From NCBI GenBank assembly GCA_944362555.1, contig CALVTL010000009.1:1-56235 (forward strand): 56,235 bases of DNA, written 5' to 3'. This document shows, piece after piece, positions 13,575 to 40,748 of this stretch. The stretch comes from an uncultured Clostridia bacterium. Lineage in GTDB: Bacteria; Bacillota; Clostridia; Christensenellales; Borkfalkiaceae. The position numbers and the translations under genes were made by a program. Below the pieces are notes generated by a model. That model was given only the letters and a program-made list of their open reading frames with translations. It did not search any database and had not been told where the DNA came from. The number at the start of each line of letters is the position of its first letter. The first letter of the stretch is position 1.

Positions 13575-13621
13575 AGAAATTTGTGACTAACGCGCCGCTT
13601 TATGCGGTGCGGAGGAGAAAT

Positions 13622-16600
13622 ATGAAACAAAGGAAACAGACGGCGGGCGATATGATGACGCTCGGGGGCGAAGGGATCCCCCGTCCCGTCCGCAAAAAGG
13701 GGAGGTTGCGCCTCAAAGCCAAGCAGCACCGCCGCCTGAAAAAGGGGCTCGCCGCCGCATCTGCCGTCGCCATCGTGGTGGGCGGCACGTTCGGCATCAA
13801 CGCGCTCTTCTTCAACAAGGCTGCGCCCAACACCGTCGCCGAGGGGTTCGACACCATCTGTCTCGAACTTCCCACCGACGGCTCCACGCCCGATCTTCAT
13901 TCCGCGCTCGAAAATATCGGCTACATGAACGCGCGCTTTCAGGCGCAGGACGTGTGGTATTCCGAGATGCAGGGCTCCGTCAACACCATGCTCTCCCAGC
14001 AGGTGAACACCTGGAAGCAGTATTCGGACGGCGTGCTCATCCAGACGGACATCACCACGTCCAGCCTCATCAACTCCGCCAAGCAGTTCTGCTGGGTGGG
14101 CGACCGCGTCATCTGGCGCGAGGCGGCGGGCGGGCCCTCCACTTATGACGGCATCGACACCGCCTGGAAGGACGGCGCGCCCTACGGCAATATGTCGGTG
14201 GAGGACTATAAAGTTTCCCGCGGGCTCCCGGGCACGGCGTTCTCCGTGTATGTCATCAACGAGGAGACGCTTTTGGATGCCTCCGAAGTCACCGCGAACG
14301 GGGACGGGACGTACACGCAGACCTACCATCTCGACCCTGCGACCGACAAGGCGCCCGCTTACTACGTCAACCAGATGATGTACACGGGCGGGCTCACGTC
14401 GCTGCCCACCTTCGACTATATCACCGTCACCTACACCTTCGACGCAACGTGGCAGGTGCTCTCCTCCGAGATCGAGGAGGCGTACACCGCTACCAAGGGC
14501 GTCAACGCCAAGTGCACGGCGACCTATTCGACGCAGTATGAATACGGCACCGACCGCGCCTATTCCACCGCCTACGACGACTATTTCAAGAGCTATGCCG
14601 ACAAGCCCGCCACGGGCGCGCCGACGGAGCAGGAGCTCACGGCTGCCGACTGCCTTGCCGAGGCGTTCGGCACCGTTCTCACGCAGCCCGTCACCTTCTC
14701 CTTGCAGCTCACGCTGAACGGGCAACCCTTCGAGGGGCTCGTCTATGTGGACGCTTCCGATACGTCCGCCCTCTCTCTTCGCGCGCGCATCGGCGAGGTG
14801 TTCCTGCAATATGCGGGGGAGGACGTGTTCCTGCGCTACGGCGACGGGGTGAAGGTAAAGCTCTCCGTTTCCGAACTCACCGCGCTCATCTCCTCCCTCA
14901 CGGAAGGGGAGGAAGTGCAGACGATGGCAAGCAAAGAGGGGGGCATCTCCTTCGATACCGACGAACTGCTCGCTCAACTCGGCAGCGGCTCGTTCACCGT
15001 CGCGGAGGACAAGAGGAGCGCCACGCTCTCCTCCGAGCTCTCCCTCATGGGCTTGCAGCTCCCCGTTACCTTCCGTTTCCTCGTCGGGGAGGACGGCGCC
15101 GTCACGTTGGGAGACGTCGCCGCACGGCTCACCCTCGGCAATACCGAGCTCGGCGCAACGCTCGCCTTTTCGCAGGAGGAACTTCCCGCCCTCACCGAGC
15201 AGGAGGCGGCGGGCTATGTTCCCCTCATGCCCTATGTGCAGAACGTGCTCTCCGTCCTCTCGGGCGAGGCGCTCCGCGTCGGCGTCTCCTATCAAATGGG
15301 GGATCTCGCCGTCGAGGGCTCGCTCGACGTCATGACGGACGAGTTGTGCGTGCAGGGTACGCTCACCGTTGCGTATAAGAGCGCCAAAAAGGAGCTCTCC
15401 TTCCTCTTTGCGGACGGCACCGCCTATCTCGCGGTGGACGGTATCCGCATCAAGGCGGACGTCACGGAGGCGCTCGCCCTGCTCGGAAACTTCGTTGAAC
15501 TTCCCGAAATGCCCGAACTTCCCGATGTTTCGGCGCTCGACTTCGGGCAGCTCGTCTCCACCGCGCTCTCGCCCGAATTTGCCGCGCTCTTTGCGGTGAG
15601 TGAGGCGGACAACGCACTTTCTCTCGCCGTCAAAGGCACGGAACTTCTCAAGGCGTTCGGGGTGGACTTCGCGCTCGGCGACGTGCAGCTCTCCGTCGAA
15701 GAAGGCGAAATTTCCGCCGCCGCGCTCGGGGCAGAACTCACGCTCACGGCGGGCGAGGCGTTCAGTTATTCCACGGACGGCTATGTGGACGGCGTTGCGC
15801 TTGCAAAGAACGTGCTTGCCCTCTTGCAGAACGATTACCTCTGCGCGGACATTGCCTACGCCGCGGGCGAGCTTGCTGTGAGCGGCACGGTGACGCTGGA
15901 CGTGAATAAACTTGCCGCCAAGGGCACGCTCGTGCTCAACTATAAGTCGGCGACCAAGACGGTCGGCGTTCTCTACGCGGACGGCGCGGTGTACGTCGAG
16001 GTCGAGGGCATCAGGCTCACGGCAAACGTGGAGGAGCTTGTCTCCCTCATCGGATCGCTGCTCGGCAAAGACGTCACGCTCGACACGCCCGAAGGTGACC
16101 TCATCGAGCAAGTCCTTTCTCTCAACTTTGCGGAGCTTGTCTCCATCTCGGAGGGCGAAACTTCCGTTGAAATTCTCTTAAAGGGTACGGAACTTCTCAA
16201 GGCGTTCGGCATCGACTTCGCGCTCGGCGACGTGCAGCTCTCCGTTACGGAAGGCGAAATTTCCGCTGCCGCGCTCGGGGCAGAGCTCACGCTCACGGCG
16301 GGCGAGGCGTTCAGCTTCACGACGGACGGTTATGTGGACGGCGTCAAACTCGCGCAGAACGTGCTCACGCTCTTGCAGAACGATTACCTTTGCGCGGATA
16401 TTGCCTACGCCGCGGGCAACCTTGCCGTGAGCGGTACGGTGACCGTGGATATGAACGCGCTCGCCGCAAAGGGCACGCTTGTCCTCAATTATAAATCGGC
16501 GACCAAGACGGTCGGCGTTCTCTATGCAGACGGCGCGGTGTATGTCGAGGTCGAGGGCATTAAACTCACGGCAAACGTGGAGGAGCTCGTCGCTCTCATC

Positions 16601-19600
16601 GGTTCGCTGCTCGGCAAGGACGTCACGCTCGGCACGCCCGAAGGGGATCTCATCGAGCAGGTCCTTTCTATGAACTTTGCAGAGCTCGTCTCCATCTCGG
16701 AGGGCGAAACCTCGGTCGAAATCCTCTTAAAGGGTACGGAACTTCTCAAGGCGTTCGGCATCGACTTTGCCCTCGGCGACGTTGCTCTCTCCGTTATGGA
16801 AGGCGAGATTTCTGCCTCTGCGCTCGGGGCAGAACTCACGCTCACGGCAGGCGAGGCGTTCAGCTATTCGACGGACGGCTATGTGGACGGCGTTGCGCTT
16901 GCAAAGAACGTGCTCGCACTCTTGCAGAACGACTATCTTTGCGCGGACATTGCCTACGCGGCGGGCGAGCTTGCAGTCAGCGGCACGGTGATGCTGGATA
17001 TGAACGCGCTCGCCGCCAAGGGCACGCTCGTGCTCAACTATAAGTCGGCGACCAAGACGGTCGGTATTCTTTACGCGGACGGCGCGGTGTATGTCGAGGT
17101 GGAGGGCATCAAGCTCACGGCGAACGTGGAGGAGCTCGTTTCTCTCATCGGCTCGCTGCTCGGCAAAGACGTCACCCTCGGCACGCCCGAAGGGGATCTC
17201 ATCGAGCAGGTGCTCTCCCTCAATTTTGCGGAACTCGTCTCCATCTCGGAGGGCGAAACTTCGGTTGAAATCCTCCTCAAAGGTACGGAGCTTCTCAAGG
17301 CGTTCGGGGTGGACTTCGCCCTCGGCGACGTTGCTCTCTCCGTAGCGGAAGGTGAAATTTCCGCCGCTGCGCTCGGCGCAGAACTCACCCTCACGGCGGG
17401 CGAGGCGTTCACATACACGACGGACGGCTATGTGGACGGCGTCAAGCTCGCGCAGAACATTCTCGCCCTCTTGCAGAACGATTACCTCTGCGCGGACATT
17501 GCTTACGCCGCGGGCGAGCTTGCCGTGAGCGGCACGGTGACGCTGGATATGAACGCGCTTGCCGCCAAGGGCACGCTCGTGCTCAACTATAAATCGGCGA
17601 CCAAGACGGTCGGCGTTCTCTACGCGGACGGCGCGGTGTATGTCGAGGTCGAGGGCATCAGGCTCACGGCGAACGTGGAGGAGCTCGTCGCGCTCATCGG
17701 ATCGCTCCTCGGCAAGGACGTCACCCTCGGCACGCCCGAAGGGGATTTAATTGAGCAGGTGCTCTCCCTCAATTTTGCGGAACTCGTCTCCGTCTCGGAG
17801 GGCGAAACTTCGGTTGAAATCCTCCTCAAAGGTACGGAGCTTCTCAAGGCGTTCGGCGTTGACTTCGCCCTCGGTGACGTGCAGCTCTCCGTAGCGGAAG
17901 GTGAAATTTCCGCCGCCGCGCTCGGGGCAGAACTCACCCTCACCGCGGGCGAGGCGTTCAGCTTCACGACGGACGGTTATGTGGACGGCGTTGCGCTCGC
18001 AAAGAACGTGCTTGCACTCTTGCAGAACGACTATCTTTGCGCGGATATTGCCTACGCCGCGGGCGAGCTTGCCGTGAGCGGCACGGTGACCGTGGATATG
18101 AACGCGCTTGCCGCCAAGGGCACGCTTGTGCTCAACTATAAATCGGCGACCAAGACGGTCGGCGTTCTCTATGCGGACGGCGCGGTGTACGTCGAAGTCG
18201 AGGGCATCAGGCTCACGGCGAACGTGGAGGAGCTCGTCGCTCTCATCGGTTCGCTGCTTGGCAAGGATGTCACGCTCGGCACGCCCGAAGGCGATCTCTT
18301 GGAGCAAGTTCTCTCTTTGAACTTTGCGGAACTCGTCTCCATCTCGGAGGGCGAAACCTCCGTTGAAATTCTTCTCAAAGGTACGGAACTTCTCAAGGCG
18401 TTCGGCATTGACTTTGCGCTCGGCGACGTTGCTCTCTCCGTCGAGGAAGGGGAAATTTCCGCCTCTGCGCTCGGGGCAGAGCTCACGCTCACGGCGGGCG
18501 AGGCGTTCACCTTCACGACGGACGGCTATGTGGACGGCGTTGCGCTTGCAAAGAACGTGCTTGCCCTCTTGCAGAACGATTATCTCTGCGCGGACGTTGC
18601 CTACGCCGCGGGCAACCTTGCCGTGAGCGGCACGGTGACGCTCGACGTAAATAAACTTGCCGCCAAGGGCACGCTCGTGCTCAACTATAAATCGGCGACC
18701 AAGACGATCGGTATATTGTACGCAGACGGCGCGGTGTATGTCGAGGTCGAGGGCATCAGGCTCACGGCGAACGTGGAGGAGCTCGTCTCCCTCATCGGTT
18801 CGCTCCTCGGTAAGGACGTCACGCTCGGCACGCCCGAAGGGGATCTCATCGAGCAGGTTCTCTCCCTCAATTTTGCGGAACTTGTCAGCATTTCAGAGGG
18901 CGAAACTTCGGTCGAAATCCTCCTCAAAGGCACGGAGCTTTTGCAGGCGTTCGGCATCGACTTTGCGCTCGGCGACGTGGCGCTCTCCGTCGAAGAAGGG
19001 GAAATTTCCGCCGCCGCGCTCGGCGCAGAACTCACGCTTACCGCGGGCGAGGCGTTCACCTATACGACGGACGGCTATGTGGACGGTGTCAAGCTCGCGC
19101 AGAACGTGCTCACGCTCTTGCAGAACGATTATCTTTGCGCGGACATTGCCTACGCCGCGGGCGAGCTTGCCGTGAGCGGCACGGTGACGCTCGACGTAAA
19201 TAAACTTGCCGCCAAGGGCACGCTCGTGCTCAACTATAAATCGGCGACCAAGACGGTCGGCGTGTTGTACGCAGACGGCGCGGTGTATGTCGAGGTCGAG
19301 GGCATTAAACTCACGGCGAACGTGGAGGAGCTCGTCGCTCTCATCGGTTCGCTCCTCGGCAAGGATGTCACGCTCGGCACGCCCGAAGGGGATCTTATCG
19401 AGCAGGTGCTCTCCCTCAATTTTGCGGAACTTGTCAGCATTTCAGAGGGCGAAACTTCGGTTGAAATCCTCCTCAAAGGTACGGAGCTTCTCAAGGCGTT
19501 CGGCATTGACTTTGCCCTCGGCGACGTTGCTCTCTCCGTTATGGAAGGCGAGATTTCTGCCGCCGCGCTCGGCGCAGAACTCACCCTCACGGCGGGCGAG

Positions 19601-22600
19601 GCGTTCAGCTTCACGACGGACGGCTATGTGGACGGCGTCGCGCTTGCAAAGAACGTGCTTGCCCTCTTGCAGAACGATTATCTCTGCGCGGACATTGCCT
19701 ACGCGGCGGGCGAGCTTGCAGTCAGCGGCACGGTGATGCTGGATATGAACGCGCTCGCCGCCAAGGGCACGCTCGTGCTCAACTATAAGTCGGCGACCAA
19801 GACGGTCGGTATTCTTTACGCGGACGGCGCGGTGTATGTCGAGGTGGAGGGCATCAAGCTCACGGCGAACGTGGAGGAGCTCGTCGCTCTCATCGGTTCG
19901 CTGCTCGGCAAGGACGTCACGCTCGGCACGCCCGAAGGGGATCTCATTGAGCAGGTCCTTTCTATGAACTTTGCAGAGCTCGTCTCCATCTCGGAAGGGG
20001 AAACCTCTGTCGAAATTCTGTTGAAGGGCACAGAACTTCTCAAGGCGTTCGGCATTGATTTTGCACTCGGCGACGTTGCCCTCTCCGTCGAGGAAGGGGA
20101 AATTTCCGCCGCCGCGCTCGGCGCAGATCTTACCCTCACCGCAGGCGAGGCGTTCACCTATACGACGGACGGCTATGTGGAGCTTGCCCCCGTGTTCGAC
20201 CTCGTCAAGACGGTGCTCACGGACGGGCGCATCGCGCTCGGCGGTTCGCTCAAATTAAAGTATAAGAATATGGCGGCGGAAGTCGCCATCGAGAACGGCG
20301 TGCTCTCGTGGAAGGACGGGTTCGCGCTCTCGCTCGACCTCACCGTCATTGCGAACGGCACGCGGCAGACCATCAAGGTGAGTGCGGACGCGTCGCAGCT
20401 CCGCCTTGTCTATGGCAGCGTGGGCGTGGCGCTCGGCTACGACGAGCTCTACAAGCTCTCGGATACCTTTGAAGCGGTGTATGAACGCGTCGCGCGCACG
20501 ATCAGATCGTACGTTGCGGGCGCGGACATCCCCGCGACGGCGGAGGAGCTGATGAACACGCTGGGCGCGGGCGCGGCGGTCACGGAAATTTTTGCCTCCG
20601 TCGGCCTTCCTTCGCTCATCGACGGCGTTCATTTCGGCGGCGCGACGGGCACCGAAGGGAGCATGGGCACCGTCACGCTGGGCGGGTTCACCTTCGATCT
20701 CATCATGCAGAACGGGGCATTCTCGCTCGCCCTTGCGGAGAGCAAGGCGGGGGATGTGACGCTCTCGGGCAAGGTGGACATTGCCGCCTCCGGGCGCCTT
20801 CCCGACGCCCCCGCAGGCACGCCGGAGGAGTCCGGGCTCATGACGGCGGACGATCTGTGCGAACTGCTCGACTTTGTCGGCGCAGCCGTGGGAACGCTCG
20901 CCTCGCAGGATGTGACCGTGTCCTTTGCGGGCGGCACAAAGAACGCAGATAACGAGGACGTATACAACATTTCGGGACAGCTCGTCTATCACGCGGGCGC
21001 GTCCGGAAAGGTCGTCACCATCGATGTGGACGGCAAGAGCATCGTGGTCGATCCCACCATGTACCTTGTGTTCCGCCTCGTTCTCGAGGATAAGCGCACG
21101 GAGGGGAACGACCTCTATCTCGACTTCTGGATGTTCGACGCGGAGGGCGACGGCGAGCTCGACTTCTTTGTGAGTATCTCCAAATACCCCGGAAAGACGT
21201 ATGCGGACGACGGGGAGACCCGCCTCGATCAGCCGCTCTGCTTCCGCGTTCCCGCGGGCGACATTCTGACCCTGCTTGCGAGCGGCGTCTCGCTGACGGA
21301 GGGCAAGCTCTCCGGCTTCCTCACGGGGTTGGGGCTTCCCGCCGACGCGGTGGATGCCGTCTTCTCCACGCTGGACGCCTTCTTCGGCTCCAGGTGGCTG
21401 ACGGACACCGACAAGGCGCAGCTCGGCGCGCTCGGCAACGTGCTCATGTCGACGCTCGGCATCGACGCAAAGCTCGAGGGCATTTTGAGCGAGCTCAACA
21501 GCGCCATCGGTGGCGCGCTCGACGATGCTGCCGCCGTCGACCCCGGGAAGTACCTCTCGGAACTCGGCATCCGTCGGGACGAGAAGGGCGTCACCTTCTT
21601 CCTCACTCTCAACTCCGACCTCATCTACGGCGGGAACGGGCTTGCCCCGCTCACCATCGAGCTCACCAAGACGCAAGCCGTGGGAGGGGAGAGCCTGCTC
21701 TCGGGCGTCCTGCTCGGCAATGTCTGGGGCAACAAGAACACGGAAACGACGGGCATCTCCTTCGGGTTCGCCTTCGGCAAGACGCAGCTTTCGGCGTCGT
21801 CGGCGGACGCGCAGCTCACCGCGGCGGACGGCACGAAGCTCGCCTCCCTCGCCCTGGAACAGTTCCAAAGCTACACCTTCAAGGGGGTGGATGAACTCAT
21901 CAAGGCGATCGCCGCCTCCGCAACGTATCCCGTCGCCGATGGCGAATATGCCCTCAACGAGAAGTTCATCGTCGAGGGAACGGCGTCGGCATCTCTCGAT
22001 ATTTTCGGCGGCATCGACCTTACGGGCATCGGCGTGCAGCTTGCAGTCTCCTTAAAGGAGAACGGCAGCCCCGTCGTCAATATCCGCATCTCTTACGAAA
22101 AGTACTCTTTTATCCTTCCCGTCATCAACAGCGACGGCGTCACCGACCTCACCATCGAGGACGGCATGGTGTATGTGCGCCGCACGGCGGGCGGGGAGAC
22201 GACGTACCGCGTTGCGCCGCTCGGCAAGTTCTTTGCGGGCTTCCTCACGGAGCACCTTGCCTATCTCTTCAACTTCTCCGATACGATCGCGGACGCCATC
22301 AAGAAAGCGGAAACGAGCGGCGGCGGGAGCAGTTCGGGCGATTACGGCGCGGTGCTCGGCAACATCCTCTCCTCCTATTCCTATGCGCCTTCGGGCAGCG
22401 GGAAGGCGGCGAGCTGGTCGCTCACCCTCAACGGTAACAGTCTCACGAACGGCGCGCTCACGGACATCCTGCTCACGCTCGGAACGGACGAAGAGGGCAT
22501 TTTGCGCACCCTCAACGTCGATACCTCCCTCATCGATCTCATCAGGCTCTCCCTTCCGCTCACCTTCCAAAACCCGTGCGGGGAGAGCTATCCCGACCCC

Positions 22601-23722
22601 ACGACCAACGTCAAAGACCTGCTCTCGGGCGCCGACCTTGCCTCTGTCGATTGGAACGCCATGGCGGAAAACGCCTATCTCGCGCCGCAGACGTCCACCG
22701 TGTCCTATGCAGTGGACGGCGTGCAGGTCGGCTCGCAGCAGGTGTGGTATTCGGGCGATATGCTTTTAACGGCGCTCGCTCGCCCCGACCTTGCTGCCTG
22801 GCAGAAGGAGGGCTACACCCTCTCGTGGAAGGACTTTGCCTTTACCCCGAACGGCGTGTGCGAGGCGGTCTATTCGCCCAATCTCTATCCCGTCACCATC
22901 ACAGCGCCCGTCAATCTGGGCGGGGATTGGACGGACAACAGCGACGGAACGTACTCCTTCACGACGCAGATGTACTACGGAGAAGCGCTCACCCTCACCT
23001 GGGGCAGCAAGACGCACGTCTTCCGCGTGGGAACGGACAACAACGTCTTTGACCTCGGCGCAGCCATCGGCGAGGACAGCGTGGTCTGGGAGGACGCGGT
23101 GTGCGACATTGTTGCAAACGGGTCCACCATCACGGTACCGCTCACGCCCGACACGGTGGTGTATACGAGCAGCTCGGTTGCGTTCACGTTGGACGGCACG
23201 TCGCTCACCGGGCAGTCCACGGCGGAATTTAACGCGCAGTACACCCTTCTCACGCCGACGGCGGAGGGCTATACCTTCCTCGGCTGGTACAAAACGGAGG
23301 ACGGCGAACTCACCCGCGTGACGGAGCTTGCCTATCAGGGCGGCGGCAACGTGACGACGGTCTCCGCAATGTGGGTGAGCAACCTCTCGGACGCGGCGAT
23401 CACCATTGAGAGGAGCGGCTCGTGGTTCAGTTACGATCAGCGCATCTCCTTCCGGGCGGAGGGCGGAAAGGTCGTCGGGGAATACGCCGGGCATTTCACG
23501 GTCAGCGCCTCCTACGAGTTGACTTTCAAATGGAATACCGTATCCTATGACGTCGATACCTCGGACTTCACCCCCTACGAGACGACGTCGGGCTGGCAGA
23601 CGGGGGTGGCGACGTCGCACACGCCTGTTGCCGATCCGACGGCGCGCCTCACGTTCACGGTGAGCGTTCTCCTGAACGGGCAGAGCGTCGGCGCGACGAG
23701 CGTCTATGCAGAGAAAAAATAG
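13622..23722 (+). CDS. Giant repeat-containing surface protein (3366 aa)
   Basis: A membrane-anchored extracytoplasmic protein of unknown function. GGAGGAG at 13611-13617 chooses the ATG at 13622. A very basic N-terminus (residues 20-41) precedes one hydrophobic segment (about 42-64), which fits an uncleaved signal anchor with the bulk outside. Residues 70-520 are unique. A divergent repeat (about 530-720) leads into eight near-identical 183-residue repeats (about 721-2184), then a divergent remnant and a unique region (2185-3080). Near residue 3214, GYTFLGWYKTEDGE is a Listeria-Bacteroides (Flg_new/InlB-B) repeat. No LPXTG motif, SLH domain or C-terminal membrane segment is seen. Very few Cys suggests an extended, disulfide-free fibre; adhesion or an envelope-spanning role is a guess. 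Confidence 0.85.
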   Translation: MKQRKQTAGDMMTLGGEGIPRPVRKKGRLRLKAKQHRRLKKGLAAASAVAIVVGGTFGINALFFNKAAPNTVAEGFDTICLELPTDGSTPDLHSALENIGYMNARFQAQDVWYSEMQGSVNTMLSQQVNTWKQYSDGVLIQTDITTSSLINSAKQFCWVGDRVIWREAAGGPSTYDGIDTAWKDGAPYGNMSVEDYKVSRGLPGTAFSVYVINEETLLDASEVTANGDGTYTQTYHLDPATDKAPAYYVNQMMYTGGLTSLPTFDYITVTYTFDATWQVLSSEIEEAYTATKGVNAKCTATYSTQYEYGTDRAYSTAYDDYFKSYADKPATGAPTEQELTAADCLAEAFGTVLTQPVTFSLQLTLNGQPFEGLVYVDASDTSALSLRARIGEVFLQYAGEDVFLRYGDGVKVKLSVSELTALISSLTEGEEVQTMASKEGGISFDTDELLAQLGSGSFTVAEDKRSATLSSELSLMGLQLPVTFRFLVGEDGAVTLGDVAARLTLGNTELGATLAFSQEELPALTEQEAAGYVPLMPYVQNVLSVLSGEALRVGVSYQMGDLAVEGSLDVMTDELCVQGTLTVAYKSAKKELSFLFADGTAYLAVDGIRIKADVTEALALLGNFVELPEMPELPDVSALDFGQLVSTALSPEFAALFAVSEADNALSLAVKGTELLKAFGVDFALGDVQLSVEEGEISAAALGAELTLTAGEAFSYSTDGYVDGVALAKNVLALLQNDYLCADIAYAAGELAVSGTVTLDVNKLAAKGTLVLNYKSATKTVGVLYADGAVYVEVEGIRLTANVEELVSLIGSLLGKDVTLDTPEGDLIEQVLSLNFAELVSISEGETSVEILLKGTELLKAFGIDFALGDVQLSVTEGEISAAALGAELTLTAGEAFSFTTDGYVDGVKLAQNVLTLLQNDYLCADIAYAAGNLAVSGTVTVDMNALAAKGTLVLNYKSATKTVGVLYADGAVYVEVEGIKLTANVEELVALIGSLLGKDVTLGTPEGDLIEQVLSMNFAELVSISEGETSVEILLKGTELLKAFGIDFALGDVALSVMEGEISASALGAELTLTAGEAFSYSTDGYVDGVALAKNVLALLQNDYLCADIAYAAGELAVSGTVMLDMNALAAKGTLVLNYKSATKTVGILYADGAVYVEVEGIKLTANVEELVSLIGSLLGKDVTLGTPEGDLIEQVLSLNFAELVSISEGETSVEILLKGTELLKAFGVDFALGDVALSVAEGEISAAALGAELTLTAGEAFTYTTDGYVDGVKLAQNILALLQNDYLCADIAYAAGELAVSGTVTLDMNALAAKGTLVLNYKSATKTVGVLYADGAVYVEVEGIRLTANVEELVALIGSLLGKDVTLGTPEGDLIEQVLSLNFAELVSVSEGETSVEILLKGTELLKAFGVDFALGDVQLSVAEGEISAAALGAELTLTAGEAFSFTTDGYVDGVALAKNVLALLQNDYLCADIAYAAGELAVSGTVTVDMNALAAKGTLVLNYKSATKTVGVLYADGAVYVEVEGIRLTANVEELVALIGSLLGKDVTLGTPEGDLLEQVLSLNFAELVSISEGETSVEILLKGTELLKAFGIDFALGDVALSVEEGEISASALGAELTLTAGEAFTFTTDGYVDGVALAKNVLALLQNDYLCADVAYAAGNLAVSGTVTLDVNKLAAKGTLVLNYKSATKTIGILYADGAVYVEVEGIRLTANVEELVSLIGSLLGKDVTLGTPEGDLIEQVLSLNFAELVSISEGETSVEILLKGTELLQAFGIDFALGDVALSVEEGEISAAALGAELTLTAGEAFTYTTDGYVDGVKLAQNVLTLLQNDYLCADIAYAAGELAVSGTVTLDVNKLAAKGTLVLNYKSATKTVGVLYADGAVYVEVEGIKLTANVEELVALIGSLLGKDVTLGTPEGDLIEQVLSLNFAELVSISEGETSVEILLKGTELLKAFGIDFALGDVALSVMEGEISAAALGAELTLTAGEAFSFTTDGYVDGVALAKNVLALLQNDYLCADIAYAAGELAVSGTVMLDMNALAAKGTLVLNYKSATKTVGILYADGAVYVEVEGIKLTANVEELVALIGSLLGKDVTLGTPEGDLIEQVLSMNFAELVSISEGETSVEILLKGTELLKAFGIDFALGDVALSVEEGEISAAALGADLTLTAGEAFTYTTDGYVELAPVFDLVKTVLTDGRIALGGSLKLKYKNMAAEVAIENGVLSWKDGFALSLDLTVIANGTRQTIKVSADASQLRLVYGSVGVALGYDELYKLSDTFEAVYERVARTIRSYVAGADIPATAEELMNTLGAGAAVTEIFASVGLPSLIDGVHFGGATGTEGSMGTVTLGGFTFDLIMQNGAFSLALAESKAGDVTLSGKVDIAASGRLPDAPAGTPEESGLMTADDLCELLDFVGAAVGTLASQDVTVSFAGGTKNADNEDVYNISGQLVYHAGASGKVVTIDVDGKSIVVDPTMYLVFRLVLEDKRTEGNDLYLDFWMFDAEGDGELDFFVSISKYPGKTYADDGETRLDQPLCFRVPAGDILTLLASGVSLTEGKLSGFLTGLGLPADAVDAVFSTLDAFFGSRWLTDTDKAQLGALGNVLMSTLGIDAKLEGILSELNSAIGGALDDAAAVDPGKYLSELGIRRDEKGVTFFLTLNSDLIYGGNGLAPLTIELTKTQAVGGESLLSGVLLGNVWGNKNTETTGISFGFAFGKTQLSASSADAQLTAADGTKLASLALEQFQSYTFKGVDELIKAIAASATYPVADGEYALNEKFIVEGTASASLDIFGGIDLTGIGVQLAVSLKENGSPVVNIRISYEKYSFILPVINSDGVTDLTIEDGMVYVRRTAGGETTYRVAPLGKFFAGFLTEHLAYLFNFSDTIADAIKKAETSGGGSSSGDYGAVLGNILSSYSYAPSGSGKAASWSLTLNGNSLTNGALTDILLTLGTDEEGILRTLNVDTSLIDLIRLSLPLTFQNPCGESYPDPTTNVKDLLSGADLASVDWNAMAENAYLAPQTSTVSYAVDGVQVGSQQVWYSGDMLLTALARPDLAAWQKEGYTLSWKDFAFTPNGVCEAVYSPNLYPVTITAPVNLGGDWTDNSDGTYSFTTQMYYGEALTLTWGSKTHVFRVGTDNNVFDLGAAIGEDSVVWEDAVCDIVANGSTITVPLTPDTVVYTSSSVAFTLDGTSLTGQSTAEFNAQYTLLTPTAEGYTFLGWYKTEDGELTRVTELAYQGGGNVTTVSAMWVSNLSDAAITIERSGSWFSYDQRISFRAEGGKVVGEYAGHFTVSASYELTFKWNTVSYDVDTSDFTPYETTSGWQTGVATSHTPVADPTARLTFTVSVLLNGQSVGATSVYAEKK
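15782..20173 (+). repeat. Eight tandem 549-bp repeats, indel-free
   Basis: The landmark TATGTGGAC falls at 15782, 16331, 16880, 17429, 17978, 18527, 19076, 19625 and 20174 (the last before a divergent unit), every step exactly 549 bp. Each unit codes 183 residues (DGYVDGV..LAQNVL, NYKSATKTVGVLYADGAVYV, GSLLGKDVTLGTPEGDL, LLKGTELLKAFGIDFALGDV, ALGAELTLTAGEAF). Units differ only by small shared alternatives (VKLAQ or VALAK; VTLDVNKL or VTVDMNAL). Confidence 0.97.
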
Positions 23723-25031: not shown

Positions 25032-25223
25032 ATGAACAGGCTCTTGACGGAAACAGTATTGGAGGAGGGGCGCCGCCGCGAGCGGGACGCCCGCAACGAG
25101 GCGCTGCGCGCGCGCCTTCGGGAGGCGCGCCGCACGGGGAAGTGGGCGCTTTCTTGCCTGCGCGGACTGAATATGGAGGAACGCGGCTGCGCAAATTTCG
25201 GAAATGTGTGCGCAAGCGTTTGA
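25032..25223 (+). CDS. Possible small basic protein (63 aa), doubtful
   Basis: An open frame of 63 residues with a charged helical start (MNRLLTETVLEEGRRRERDAR). GGGAG ends only one base before the ATG, too close for a good SD, and I see no matching promoter apart from TACAAT at 25019. GC-rich bias could create this by chance. Listed because it is the only candidate between the regulator and the tyrS promoter. Confidence 0.2.
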   Translation: MNRLLTETVLEEGRRRERDARNEALRARLREARRTGKWALSCLRGLNMEERGCANFGNVCASV

Positions 25224-25248
25224 CATTCTGCGCGCGGCGTCGTATAAT
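25220..25248 (+). promoter_or_regulatory. Consensus promoter of tyrS
   Basis: TTGACA (25220-25225), 17 bp, TATAAT (25243-25248), a perfect consensus. Transcription should start about 25254-25256, at the ATG of the leader peptide, so the leader message may be leaderless. Confidence 0.88.
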
Positions 25249-25254
25249 AACAAT

Positions 25255-25311
25255 ATGAAACAGTCGCTCGCAGTTGCAATTTACGGCTACGCGTATTACG
25301 TTCTTTCGTAA
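25255..25311 (+). CDS. Tyrosine-rich leader peptide of tyrS
   Basis: An 18-residue peptide, MKQSLAVAIYGYAYYVLS, with four Tyr codons in six (TAC GGC TAC GCG TAT TAC) followed by three residues and TAA. It starts about 7 bases after the -10 of the tyrS promoter, so it has no room for an SD. Tyr codons 10-15 form the left arm of a hairpin, and an intrinsic terminator follows before tyrS. The layout is that of an attenuation leader sensing Tyr-tRNA, as in the trp, his or phe operons of proteobacteria. Function is inferred; the codons, hairpins and position are seen. Confidence 0.75.
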   Translation: MKQSLAVAIYGYAYYVLS

Positions 25312-25380
25312 TACTCTTTTCGCGCGTAGACTGAATTTTCTGATTTCAACGGTTTGCGCGCAGGCGCGGACCGTTTTTTT
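25288..25380 (+). promoter_or_regulatory. Transcription attenuator of tyrS
   Basis: Pause hairpin: GTATTACG (25293-25300) pairs with CGTAATAC (25307-25314), and TACGC (25288-25292) with GCGTA (25324-25328). Terminator: ACGGTTTGCGC (25349-25359) pairs with GCGCGGACCGT (25364-25374), loop GCAG, then T7 to 25380. Antiterminator: CGCGCG (25321-25326) can pair with TGCGCG (25355-25360), blocking the terminator. Stalling at the Tyr codons would free the antiterminator strand. No T-box sequence is present. Confidence 0.72.
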
Positions 25381-25404
25381 ATCGGCGGGCAAGAAGGAGA
25401 CAGG

Positions 25405-26598
25405 ATGCAGAACGTCATGGACACCCTGCGCGCGCGGGGATTTATCAAACAGACCGTCTTTGAGGATGAGCTCTACGAAAAGCTCGGGCAGGAGAGCGTG
25501 CCCTTTTATATCGGGTTCGACCCGACGGCGGACAGCCTGCACGTCGGGCACTTCATGCAGCTCGTTGCGATGAAGCATATGCAGGACGCGGGACACAAGC
25601 CCATCATCCTCATCGGCGGCGGAACGGGCATGATCGGCGACCCCTCGGGAAGGACGGATATGCGCTCGATGATGACGCGCGAAACGGTGAAGTATCACGT
25701 CGAGTGCTTCAAAAAGCAGATGGCGCGCTTCATCCGCTTCGAGGGCGAGAACGGCGCCGTCGTCGTGGATAACGCCGATTGGCTGCTCTATCTCAACTAT
25801 GTGGACTTCCTGCGCGACGTGGGCGTCTATTTTTCCGTCAACAAGATGCTCACGGCGGAGTGCTACCGCTCGCGCATGGAGAAGGGGCTCACCTTCCTCG
25901 AATTCAACTATATGCTCATGCAGGCGTACGATTTCCTCGTATTGAACCGCAAGTACGGGTGCCTCCTGCAGCTCGGCGGCGACGACCAGTGGAGCAACAT
26001 TCTGGCGGGCGCCGACCTCATCCGCAGAAAGGAGCGCAAAGCGGCGTTCGCCATGACCTTCACCCTGCTCACGACGAGCGAGGGCAAGAAGATGGGCAAG
26101 ACGCAAAAGGGCGCCGTCTGGCTGGATGAGAACAAGACCTCGCCCTATGAGTTTTATCAGTATTGGCGCAACACGGCGGACGCCGACGTCGAAAAGTGTC
26201 TCAAGCTCCTCACCTTCCTTCCGCTCGAAGAGATCGCGGAACTCACCGGATTTCAGGACGAGCGCATCAACCGCGCCAAGGAGGTGCTCGCCTTTGAGCT
26301 CACCAAGATGGTGCACGGCGAAGAGAAGGCGCTCGCGGCGCAGGCGGAGGCGCGCGCAGCCTTCGGCGGCGAGGGTGAGATGCCCGAAAAGCGGGTGCCC
26401 GCAGGCACGCAGACGGTGCTTGCCGCGCTGCTCGCCACGGGGCTGTGCAAGTCCAACGGCGAGGCGCGCAGGCTCGTCGAACAGGGCGGCGTGAGCATCA
26501 ACGGCGAGAAGGTGACCGACGTCAACGCCGCGCTTCCCGCTTCGCCCTTCACCCTGTTCAAGGGGAAGAAGGTGCGCTTCAACGTCATCGTCGGATGA
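25405..26598 (+). CDS. tyrS: Tyrosyl-tRNA synthetase
   Basis: A class I aminoacyl-tRNA synthetase charging tRNA-Tyr. In the 397-residue protein the HIGH motif is HVGH at residues 46-49 and the KMSKS loop is KMGKT at 229-233. GGDDQWSN and LMQAYDF are typical TyrRS segments, and a C-terminal S4-like RNA-binding domain (about 330-397) ends the protein. AAGGAG (25394-25399) picks the ATG at 25405. Its stop overlaps the next start (ATGA at 26595), so the two genes are coupled. Expression should depend on the upstream attenuator. Confidence 0.97.
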
Positions 26599-38559: not shown

Positions 38560-38776
38560 GGAAATGCTCGGAACAAGTAGTGCCGCCGCGTATTTTCCAG
38601 AGAGCGCACCCTCGGCTGAAAGGTGTGCAAAGACGGGCGGAAGGCGAAACCATCCGTGTGTTTTACAACGAAAAAAAGAGCGGCCATGCGTCCGGATGGC
38701 AATTAAGGTGGAACCGCGCAGAACGTCTGCGTCCTTAAATTTTCTCGTCAAGAGGGGATTTTGGGGCGCGTTTTTT
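38560..38776 (+). ncRNA. T-box riboswitch, threonine
   Basis: A tRNA-sensing leader of thrS. The T-box core AAGGTGGAACCGCG lies at 38705-38718; the TGGA bulge would pair with a U73 acceptor end, as expected for tRNA-Thr. The Stem I specifier is probably ACC (38649-38651), a Thr codon, in GAAACCATC. The antiterminator pairs AAGG (38705-38708) with CCTT (38733-38736). The competing terminator pairs 38730-38746 with 38752-38768 (16 of 17 positions, several G-U), followed by T6 at 38771-38776. Uncharged tRNA-Thr should allow read-through. Confidence 0.92.
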
Positions 38777-38840: not shown

Positions 38841-40748
38841 ATGCAGATCACATTAAAGAACGGCGATTCGCTCGACCTGGAAACGGGTGCGAGCGCCTAC
38901 TCTGCCGCGCAGCACATCTCGGAGGGGCTCGCCCGCGCCGCCGTCGCCGCGAGGGTGAACGGCAGGCTCGTCGACCTTTCGCACCCGCTTGCGGAGGGCG
39001 ACGCGCTCGAGATCGTCACCTTAAAGGAGAAGGAGGGGCTGGAGGTCTACCGCCACACCTGCGCGCACGTTCTGGCGCAGGCGTTAAAGACCATCTATCC
39101 CACCTGCAAGCTCGCCATCGGCCCCGTCATCGACAACGGGTTCTACTACGACGTCGACTTCAAGACGCCCATCACGATGGAGGACTTCGAAAAGATCGAG
39201 GCGGAGATGAAGAAGATCGTCAAGAGCAACCTTCCCATCGAGCGCTTCACCCTGCCCCGCGAGGACGCCATCGCCCTCATGAGCAAGTACCACGAAAAAT
39301 ACAAGGTGGAGCTCATCCAGGATCTTCCCGAAGGGGAGGAGATCTCCTTCTACCGCCAGGGCGCGTTCGTCGACCTGTGCCGCGGCCCGCACCTTCCCTC
39401 GACGGGGAAGATCAAGGCGTTCAAGCTCGTGTCTATCGCGGGCGCCTATTGGCGCGGGGACGAAAAGAAGAAGATGCTCACCCGCATCTACGGCACCGCC
39501 TTCGCCAGGAAGGAGGAGATGGACGAATATTTTGAGATGCTCGAAGAGGCGAAAAAGCGCGATCACATCAAGCTCGGCAAGGAGATGAAGCTGTTCGCGC
39601 TCCTGCCCGAGGGCAAGGGATTTCCCTTCTTCCTGCCCAACGGCATGGTGCTCAAAAACACACTCATCGACTATTGGCGCCAGATCCACCGCCGCGAGGG
39701 GTACGTCGAAGTGCAGACGCCCATCATCCTCAACCGCTCCCTGTGGGAGACGTCTGGGCATTGGGATCACTATAAAGAGAATATGTACACGACCAAGATC
39801 GACGGGGAGGACTGCGCCATCAAGCCCATGAACTGCCCCGGCGGTCTGCTCGTCTACAAGACGCAGCCGCACAGCTATAAAGATCTCCCCATCCGCATGG
39901 GGGAACTCGGCATCGTCCACCGTCACGAAAAGAGCGGACAGCTCCACGGGCTCATGCGCGTGCGGTGCTTCACGCAGGACGACGCGCACATCTTCATGCT
40001 GCCCGAGCAGATCACGCAGGAGATCAAGGGCGTCGTGCGCATCATCGACGAGGTGTACAAGCTCTTCGGCTTCAAATATCACGTCGAACTCTCCACCCGC
40101 CCCGAAAACTCCATCGGTTCGGATGAGGATTGGGCGGCGGCGACGGACGCCCTGCGCGCCGCGCTGGACGAGCTCAAGCTCGACTACACGGTGAACGAGG
40201 GCGACGGCGCCTTCTACGGCCCTAAGATCGACTTCCACCTCGAGGACTCCATCAAGCGCACCTGGCAGTGCGGCACCATCCAGCTCGACTTCCAGCTCCC
40301 GCAGCGCTTCGAGATCGAGTATGTGGGCGAAGACGGGCAGAAGCACCGCCCCATCATGATCCACCGCGTCGTGTTCGGCTCCATCGAGCGCTTCATCGGC
40401 ATCCTCATCGAGCACTTTGCGGGCAAGTTCCCCGTGTGGCTCGCGCCCGAACAGGTGAAGGTGCTCCCCGTCACCGACCGCGCCTCGGCGTATGCCGAGC
40501 AGCTCGTCGCCGAAATGAACGCGATGGGGCTGCGCGCCTCCGCCGACCTGCGCAAGGAGAAGCTGGGCAGAAAGATCCTCGATGCCGAGATGGAAAAGGT
40601 GCCCTATAAGCTGGTCGTCGGCGACAAGGAGGTGGAGGAAGGCACCGTCTCCGTCCGCCGCCGCGGCAAGGGGGACATCGGCAGCATGGCGAAAGCCGAC
40701 TTCTTCGCCCTCGTCAAAAAAGAGGACGCCGACAAAACGATTTTCTGA
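38841..40748 (+). CDS. thrS: Threonyl-tRNA synthetase
   Basis: A class II synthetase, 635 residues. A TGS domain (1-62) is followed by the editing domain with HTCAH (near residue 74) and GPVIDNGFYYD. The catalytic core has MNCPGGLLVYK (zinc-ligand Cys), motif 2 GLMRVRCFTQDDAHIF, and motif 3 near HRVVFGSIERFIGILIEH. The anticodon-binding domain occupies about 540-635. GGGAGG precedes ATG. The T-box leader controls it. The following translation-factor operon has its own promoter. Confidence 0.97.
   Translation: MQITLKNGDSLDLETGASAYSAAQHISEGLARAAVAARVNGRLVDLSHPLAEGDALEIVTLKEKEGLEVYRHTCAHVLAQALKTIYPTCKLAIGPVIDNGFYYDVDFKTPITMEDFEKIEAEMKKIVKSNLPIERFTLPREDAIALMSKYHEKYKVELIQDLPEGEEISFYRQGAFVDLCRGPHLPSTGKIKAFKLVSIAGAYWRGDEKKKMLTRIYGTAFARKEEMDEYFEMLEEAKKRDHIKLGKEMKLFALLPEGKGFPFFLPNGMVLKNTLIDYWRQIHRREGYVEVQTPIILNRSLWETSGHWDHYKENMYTTKIDGEDCAIKPMNCPGGLLVYKTQPHSYKDLPIRMGELGIVHRHEKSGQLHGLMRVRCFTQDDAHIFMLPEQITQEIKGVVRIIDEVYKLFGFKYHVELSTRPENSIGSDEDWAAATDALRAALDELKLDYTVNEGDGAFYGPKIDFHLEDSIKRTWQCGTIQLDFQLPQRFEIEYVGEDGQKHRPIMIHRVVFGSIERFIGILIEHFAGKFPVWLAPEQVKVLPVTDRASAYAEQLVAEMNAMGLRASADLRKEKLGRKILDAEMEKVPYKLVVGDKEVEEGTVSVRRRGKGDIGSMAKADFFALVKKEDADKTIF

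Follow-up and report, generated by a model that had tools for sequence, protein, structure and literature searches.

A predicted tyrosine leader-peptide attenuator upstream of tyrS in a family of uncultured Clostridia

The tyrS gene described here encodes a tyrosyl-tRNA synthetase of 397 amino acids (positions 25405 to 26598) and lies in a 56,235-nucleotide stretch of DNA that was analysed whole and is called the window (contig G000:C9; the host genome, G000, comprises 1.8 Mb in 60 contigs and is 92% complete). Its product matches the NCBIfam tyrS profile TIGR00234 at 418 bits (cut-off, 113.8), and it is the single tyrS match in the host genome at this completeness. All parts of the element upstream, which we propose controls this gene, are on the forward strand, as is tyrS. 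A sigma-70-type promoter, TTGACA-17-TATAAT (25220 to 25248; sequence and consensus scan), is followed after 6 nt by the ATG (25255) of an 18-codon open reading frame (ORF), MKQSLAVAIYGYAYYVLS, which ends in TAA (25309 to 25311; ORF with stop codon, 25255 to 25311, identified from the sequence and by a frame test). The A of this ATG coincides with the predicted +1 position. Tyrosine is encoded at leader codons 10, 12, 14, and 15 (25282, 25288, 25294, and 25297), so that four of the six codons TAC GGC TAC GCG TAT TAC (25282 to 25299) specify Tyr; this cluster is the proposed sensor. A Shine-Dalgarno sequence, AAGGAG (25394 to 25399), precedes tyrS itself. A preliminary description of this DNA had listed the promoter, leader ORF, Tyr cluster, hairpins, terminator with its T7 tract, and tyrS, and each lies where it had been placed.

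Directly 5′ of the promoter is a 63-amino-acid ORF, P0002 (25032 to 25223, forward strand), whose stop codon overlaps the −35 box. It has no Pfam match and, judging by a TACAAT box 7 nt from its ATG, may also be leaderless; similar frames with a GLN..ER motif occur 5′ of tyrS in congeners (e.g., L007, L009, L024, and L118). Farther upstream is an ORF of 3,379 amino acids (13583 to 23722, forward strand) with a Listeria-Bacteroides repeat domain near its end. Antisense frames recur within it every 549 nt (15973, 16522, 17071, 17620, and 18169), which suggests long protein repeats.

The leader RNA can form competing structures from four strands. Hairpin 1:2 (25287 to 25329; supported by folding and by 19 relatives) is built from the Tyr codons and sequesters strand 2, with 25287 to 25294 pairing with 25322 to 25329 and 25295 to 25300 with 25307 to 25312 (−15.9 kcal/mol for 25285 to 25330). 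Strand 2 can alternatively pair with strand 3 in an antiterminator, 2:3, that spans 25322 to 25361 (25322 to 25333 with 25350 to 25361; −18.7 kcal/mol for 25318 to 25362). Strands 3 and 4 form an intrinsic terminator (25348 to 25380; −20.3 kcal/mol for 25346 to 25380), which consists of a 12-bp stem (25348 to 25359 with 25364 to 25375), a GCAG loop, and a T7 tract at 25374 to 25380. The antiterminator is mutually exclusive with hairpin 1:2 and with the terminator 3:4. This exclusivity had been recognized in the preliminary description, which gave the antiterminator only 6 bp (25321 to 25326 with 25355 to 25360); the helix in fact has 12. The unconstrained fold of the whole leader contains hairpin 1:2 together with the terminator (−43.1 kcal/mol), so the modelled default state would be off, as attenuation requires.

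When the tyrS upstream regions of relatives were aligned, both the Tyr codons and the hairpins proved to be conserved, contrary to the outcome that would have refuted the earlier proposal. From an alignment of 19 leaders, RNAalifold predicted the Tyr-codon hairpin and the terminator, with both sides changed in at least one sequence for 9 of 15 pairs. In these 19 relatives, the antiterminator had 90.1% of cells paired, compared with 20.4 to 54.5% when slid by 1 to 3 columns, and the strand 1:2 stem had 87.5% paired, compared with 23.2 to 62.5% when slid. Shuffle controls gave moderate support for both competing helices: the real value for the antiterminator was matched in 38 (covariation score), 14 (paired cells), and 244 (both-side-changed pairs) of 500 shuffles, and that for strand 1:2 in 33, 33, and 299 of 500, respectively. 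The small excess of covariation over shuffles is expected, since strand 2 has to fit two partners, and the structural evidence lies more in conserved complementarity than in compensatory change. We also compared a larger set of 56 loci with 49 distinct leader peptides, collected partly for Tyr content. A hairpin with a T tract lay between the ORF and tyrS in all 49 distinct leaders, with weak stems in four (L151, L186, L214, and L215; simple hairpin finder). In 28 of the 49, the antiterminator outperformed those of 95 or more of 100 shuffles of the upstream stretch; over all 49, the median z was −1.8, and z was positive in 4. The weakest leader of the set, L065, has 2 Tyr codons and an antiterminator z of 0.4. 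Judged by sequence comparison, both competing helices are maintained in relatives.

The Tyr codons in these leaders follow the reading frame. Tyrosine accounted for 196 of 961 residues (20.4%) in the 49 distinct peptides, an estimate biased by the partial selection of the set for Tyr, and ranged from 2 to 8 per peptide; the peptides are otherwise highly divergent. TAT or TAC occurred 196 times in the leader frame versus 8 and 21 times in the two remaining forward frames. On the reverse strand, the three frames held 7, 66, and 22, of which the 66 is probably due to GTAT and similar words repeated in the stems. Over all 56 loci, the Tyr codons comprised 114 TAC and 105 TAT. Within a 15-sequence subfamily, codons 4 to 12 carried 19 minor letters at third positions and 2 at first positions. 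Over all 18 codons, the counts were 23, 22, and 31 for the three codon positions, because codon 3 and the codons of the hairpin loop and stem (13 and 16 to 18) vary freely. The leader is a short ORF, predicted to be translated, whose codon cluster is cognate to the gene it precedes.

Chance offers a poor account of this arrangement. The window contains five perfect promoters (spacing, 16 to 18) and two short ATG frames with four Tyr in six codons; only once does a short ATG frame containing four or more Tyr in six codons begin 4 to 10 nt after a perfect promoter. In 100 dinucleotide shuffles of the window there were no perfect promoters (spacing, 16 to 18), no short ATG frames with four Tyr in six codons, and no joint sites. 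We regard conservation in relatives as stronger evidence against chance than this test.

Bacterial transcription typically starts about 7 nt past a −10 box. Across the 49 distinct leaders, the promoter scored 10 to 12 of 12, and the gap from the best-scoring −10 box to the ATG was 6 nt in 31 leaders, 7 nt in 9, 9 nt in 8, and 10 nt in 1, so the leader 5′ untranslated region (UTR) would be 0 to 4 nt long. Such a UTR has no room for a Shine-Dalgarno sequence, and the leader ORF is probably leaderless. In the host genome, 17 near-consensus promoters stand 6 to 7 nt from an ATG (backward control pattern, 0); 15 of these precede open frames of at least 165 amino acids, one is that of the Tyr leader, and one precedes a 57-amino-acid frame. 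When gaps of 0 to 30 nt were allowed, there were 126 matches (control, 1); two of the 31 possible distances thus account for 17 of the 126. Leaderless genes look common in the G000 genome by these promoter distances. The 15 long frames leave no room for a Shine-Dalgarno sequence (e.g., L203, L204, L209, L256, and L259), and tyrS itself is apparently leaderless or nearly so in some congeners (L027, L028, and L032). The cited accounts place Firmicute leaderless genes mainly in Lactobacillales and Mycoplasma (PMC3160421) and give only 15 possible leaderless genes for C. difficile (PMC7438776).

The distribution of the element was followed outward from the genus, by a tyrS-anchored survey limited to leaders 5′ of tyrS and by genome-wide model searches. 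In a first set of 37 genus genomes, upstream regions were usable in 35 (the gene start was unmatched in G014 and G022), and 16 of these 35 had the leader; the frame scan used a cut-off of 3 Tyr, and L024, with 2 Tyr, was added from its sequence. With a covariance model built from the 19 aligned leaders, 41 of the 103 genomes of the genus then had a match 5′ of tyrS (E up to 0.01); these matches comprise 31 loci (30 from the genus search plus L166) and a further 10. The 41 leaders encode 34 distinct peptides. All have two or more Tyr, a count that is not blind, the model having been built on Tyr leaders. A 42nd genus match (G028:C2; E = 0.0085) does not precede tyrS. The remaining 62 of 103 genomes had no match under stricter filters, some of them being incomplete, and leader control therefore looks dispensable. 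Beyond the genus, Tyr leaders were present at 10 of 40 family tyrS loci sampled from 17 other genera; these 10 are diverged and belong to five genera (g26, g28, g30, g145, and g148). Two more family genomes, G407 and G451, also have a Tyr leader before tyrS. One metagenome-assembled genome (MAG), JAFTPR01 (RGIG4036), has two tyrS genes, one with a Tyr leader and one without (L050 and L055), reflecting either duplication or a mixed bin.

An order-wide model search gave matches in 15 of 396 genomes, of which those with a Tyr leader before tyrS were G000, G004, G034, and G009, from the same genus, and G407 and G451, from the same family. The 11 matches in the other nine genomes (L167 to L169, L171, and L173 to L179) were rejected as Tyr leaders: their loci lack tyrS, the matched sites contain no short frame with a Tyr cluster, and several end in what appears to be a bare terminator. 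In L174, three Tyr codons open a frame that continues past 40 codons. Elsewhere in the order, in 15 regions 5′ of tyrS taken from other families (L131 only 64 nt long), no Tyr leader was found by eye or by a scan for frames with at least 3 Tyr behind a promoter. Frames with at least 3 Tyr occur in L128, L130, and some others, but they have no promoter in place and were excluded as leaders. In a narrow search of the host genome, covering 21 perfect promoters with an ATG within 3 to 12 nt and 17 near-perfect ones with gaps of 6 to 7 nt, only the tyrS leader combined, by eye, an amino-acid run with a terminator; further leaders of this build may exist in the genome. A leader of the same build, MEILICRTNEAMYPVSAKQIR, lies 6 nt past a consensus promoter and ahead of a terminator in L190 (G028:C2:84500-86500), where it precedes an apparent GNAT acetyltransferase gene (identified by eye). 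We consider it a candidate attenuator with another signal.

The leader appears to have turned over within the family. Mapped onto a tree of 55 TyrRS proteins, presence or absence of the leader requires 7 changes (15.4 for shuffled labels), of which well-supported branches force at least 5; without L044, which has only 6 nt of upstream sequence, the tree again needs 7 changes, at least 4 of them forced (shuffled, 15.6). L015 (G019) keeps a terminator-like stem without a leader frame or a good T tract, and L048 keeps such a stem with its leader frame gone; from these remnants, both are read as decayed leaders. Several congeners without the element have a promoter directly before tyrS instead. 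We infer old presence with repeated loss rather than repeated gain, since the leaders resemble one another in promoter spacing, codon cluster, and strands.

The anatomy of the element, its conservation, the coding nature of its Tyr cluster, and the maintained competing pairings lead us to regard it as very probably a classical attenuator of tyrS transcription, mediated by the ribosome and responsive to charged tRNA-Tyr. Comparative evidence backs the earlier proposal of ribosome-sensed Tyr attenuation, possibly from a message with no 5′ UTR. RNA polymerase would begin on the A of the leader ATG or beside it, and the resulting mRNA, with almost no 5′ UTR, would probably undergo leaderless translation. 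With an ample supply of Tyr-tRNA, the ribosome would pass the four Tyr codons and reach the stop codon; hairpin 1:2 would form, or the ribosome would cover strand 2, leaving strand 3 free for strand 4, and the terminator would end transcription ahead of tyrS. When Tyr-tRNA is short, the ribosome would stall at codons 10 to 15 and cover strand 1, and strand 2 would pair with strand 3 over 12 bp once the latter is made, blocking the terminator and allowing tyrS to be transcribed. We infer the direction of this response, with a shortage of Tyr-tRNA turning tyrS on. Given the size of the ribosome footprint, a ribosome at the stop codon of the window's leader is estimated barely to reach strand 2, so refolding of 1:2 after release would have to do much of the work.

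Firmicute tyrS genes are usually under T-box control, and a degenerate or new kind of T-box could read tRNA-Tyr here without translation. The host genome does contain T-boxes: five matches elsewhere have E values of 2.3e-12 or better, of which the two that exceed the Rfam cut-off precede leuA and trpB and the other three precede pheS, thrS, and cysE (genes read from sequence; thrS confirmed). One of these matches lies within the window (38560 to 38739, forward strand), before thrS (38841 to 40748), at 65.2 bits versus a gathering score of 93 (E = 4.7e-14). A T-box over cut-off also precedes tyrS at both of the two loci from genus g147, in the same family (20 of 40 family loci scanned). Before the window's tyrS, however, a T-box (RF00230) is absent, as the preliminary description had also noted: there was no match at gathering score in the window and none at E up to 5 in 25100 to 25500. 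The tyrS leader measures about 125 nt versus 219 T-box model positions, and transcription seems to start at the ORF, which leaves no room for stem I. A T-box of any kind is the least probable reading of the element, and extremely so. Matches to MicF and Zeta-pan near tyrS fell far below their gathering scores and were taken as chance.

Attenuation by another sensor, with an incidental ORF and direct binding of the leader RNA by tRNA-Tyr or a protein (TyrRS or some other RNA-binding protein), would find possible binding sites in hairpin 1:2 and the GTATTACG/CGTAATAC stem, both conserved. Yet it would have to accommodate Tyr content confined largely to one frame, core substitutions that respect that frame, diverged leaders that retain their Tyr codons while stem sequence and length change, and a promoter fixed 6 to 10 nt from an ATG; we judge it very unlikely. 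The terminator might also be constitutive, with the promoter making its own short RNA or micropeptide and tyrS receiving fixed read-through without Tyr sensing. Neither the Tyr enrichment before tyrS nor the two conserved, exclusive pairings would then be explained, and we think this very unlikely, even with the many congeners that lack the element, the promoters directly before tyrS in several of them, and the terminator-like stem that remains in L015 without a leader ORF.

Leader-peptide attenuation of synthetase genes is a known kind of control. As described in the cited texts, the attenuators of gamma-proteobacterial pheST, Streptomyces trpS and leuS, and Rhodobacterales cysS (uORFC-8-2) share with the tyrS leader a cognate-codon ORF, competing structures, and a downstream synthetase gene (PMC1262725 and PMC8632094), but they concern other amino acids and phyla, whereas the present case concerns tyrosine, tyrS, and Clostridia. 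As of 2005, classical attenuation was stated to be absent from Firmicute synthetase genes (PMC1262725). The suggestion that ribosome-sensed synthetase control would be new in Firmicutes is nevertheless unsupported, since Naville and Gautheret predicted in 2010 that hisS*, a histidyl-tRNA synthetase paralogue of bacilli, is preceded by a His leader peptide (PMC2965389). The bacilli hisS* and hisZ case is likewise a predicted leader peptide on a Firmicute synthetase paralogue (PMC2965389); it differs in its amino acid, histidine, and in that hisS* stands beside a T-box-controlled hisS, whereas only one tyrS was found here. Leader-peptide attenuation by amino acids is otherwise described in Firmicutes for the S. 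aureus ilv-leu operon, where a Leu attenuator is supported (PMC5794164), and for his operons, where His-leader attenuators were predicted in three groups in 2022 (PMC9413887); unlike the tyrS leader, these serve biosynthetic operons and other amino acids. Transcripts that start at the leader start codon, as predicted here, are reported for Streptomyces lividans leuS, trpS, thrS, trpE, and ilvB and for Sinorhizobium meliloti trpL, in Actinobacteria and alpha-proteobacteria, respectively, several of the Streptomyces leaders lacking a clear terminator (PMC8079986 and PMC7298713). The T-box (RF00230) does the same job, raising synthetase transcription upon accumulation of uncharged tRNA, but reads the tRNA directly without translation, and its model is unmatched at tyrS. 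Among the open-licence PMC papers listed by the literature searches, none was recognizable from its title and abstract as describing a tyrosine or tyrS attenuator. Within that scope, the tyrS member of this known kind, its occurrence in this clostridial family, and its turnover are new.

The attenuator reading adds tyrosine and tyrS to the leader-attenuated synthetase genes, in a clade where T-boxes would be expected and are present elsewhere in the genome. We put forward tentatively, as a possibility that may well prove wrong, a broader scenario for this single family of uncultured Clostridia: a leaderless Tyr leader would have taken the place of the T-box customary for tyrS, with a 70S ribosome initiating at the 5′-terminal nucleotide of the growing transcript; the leader would since have diversified to dozens of peptides and been lost repeatedly, in a lineage where leaderless messages are common. 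The TyrRS proteins of g147 are only about 64% identical to that of the host, so their tyrS may be another gene line, which weakens the case for a swap within the same gene line. If the scenario is true, factors that govern leaderless initiation may also act on the attenuator. The leader's 5′ UTR is apparently missing, which suggests that attenuation can operate from a leaderless start in a clostridial lineage. Presence, decay, and absence of the leader in near relatives, together with the T-box-bearing tyrS of another genus, would offer a natural series for the exchange of tRNA sensing and ribosome sensing.
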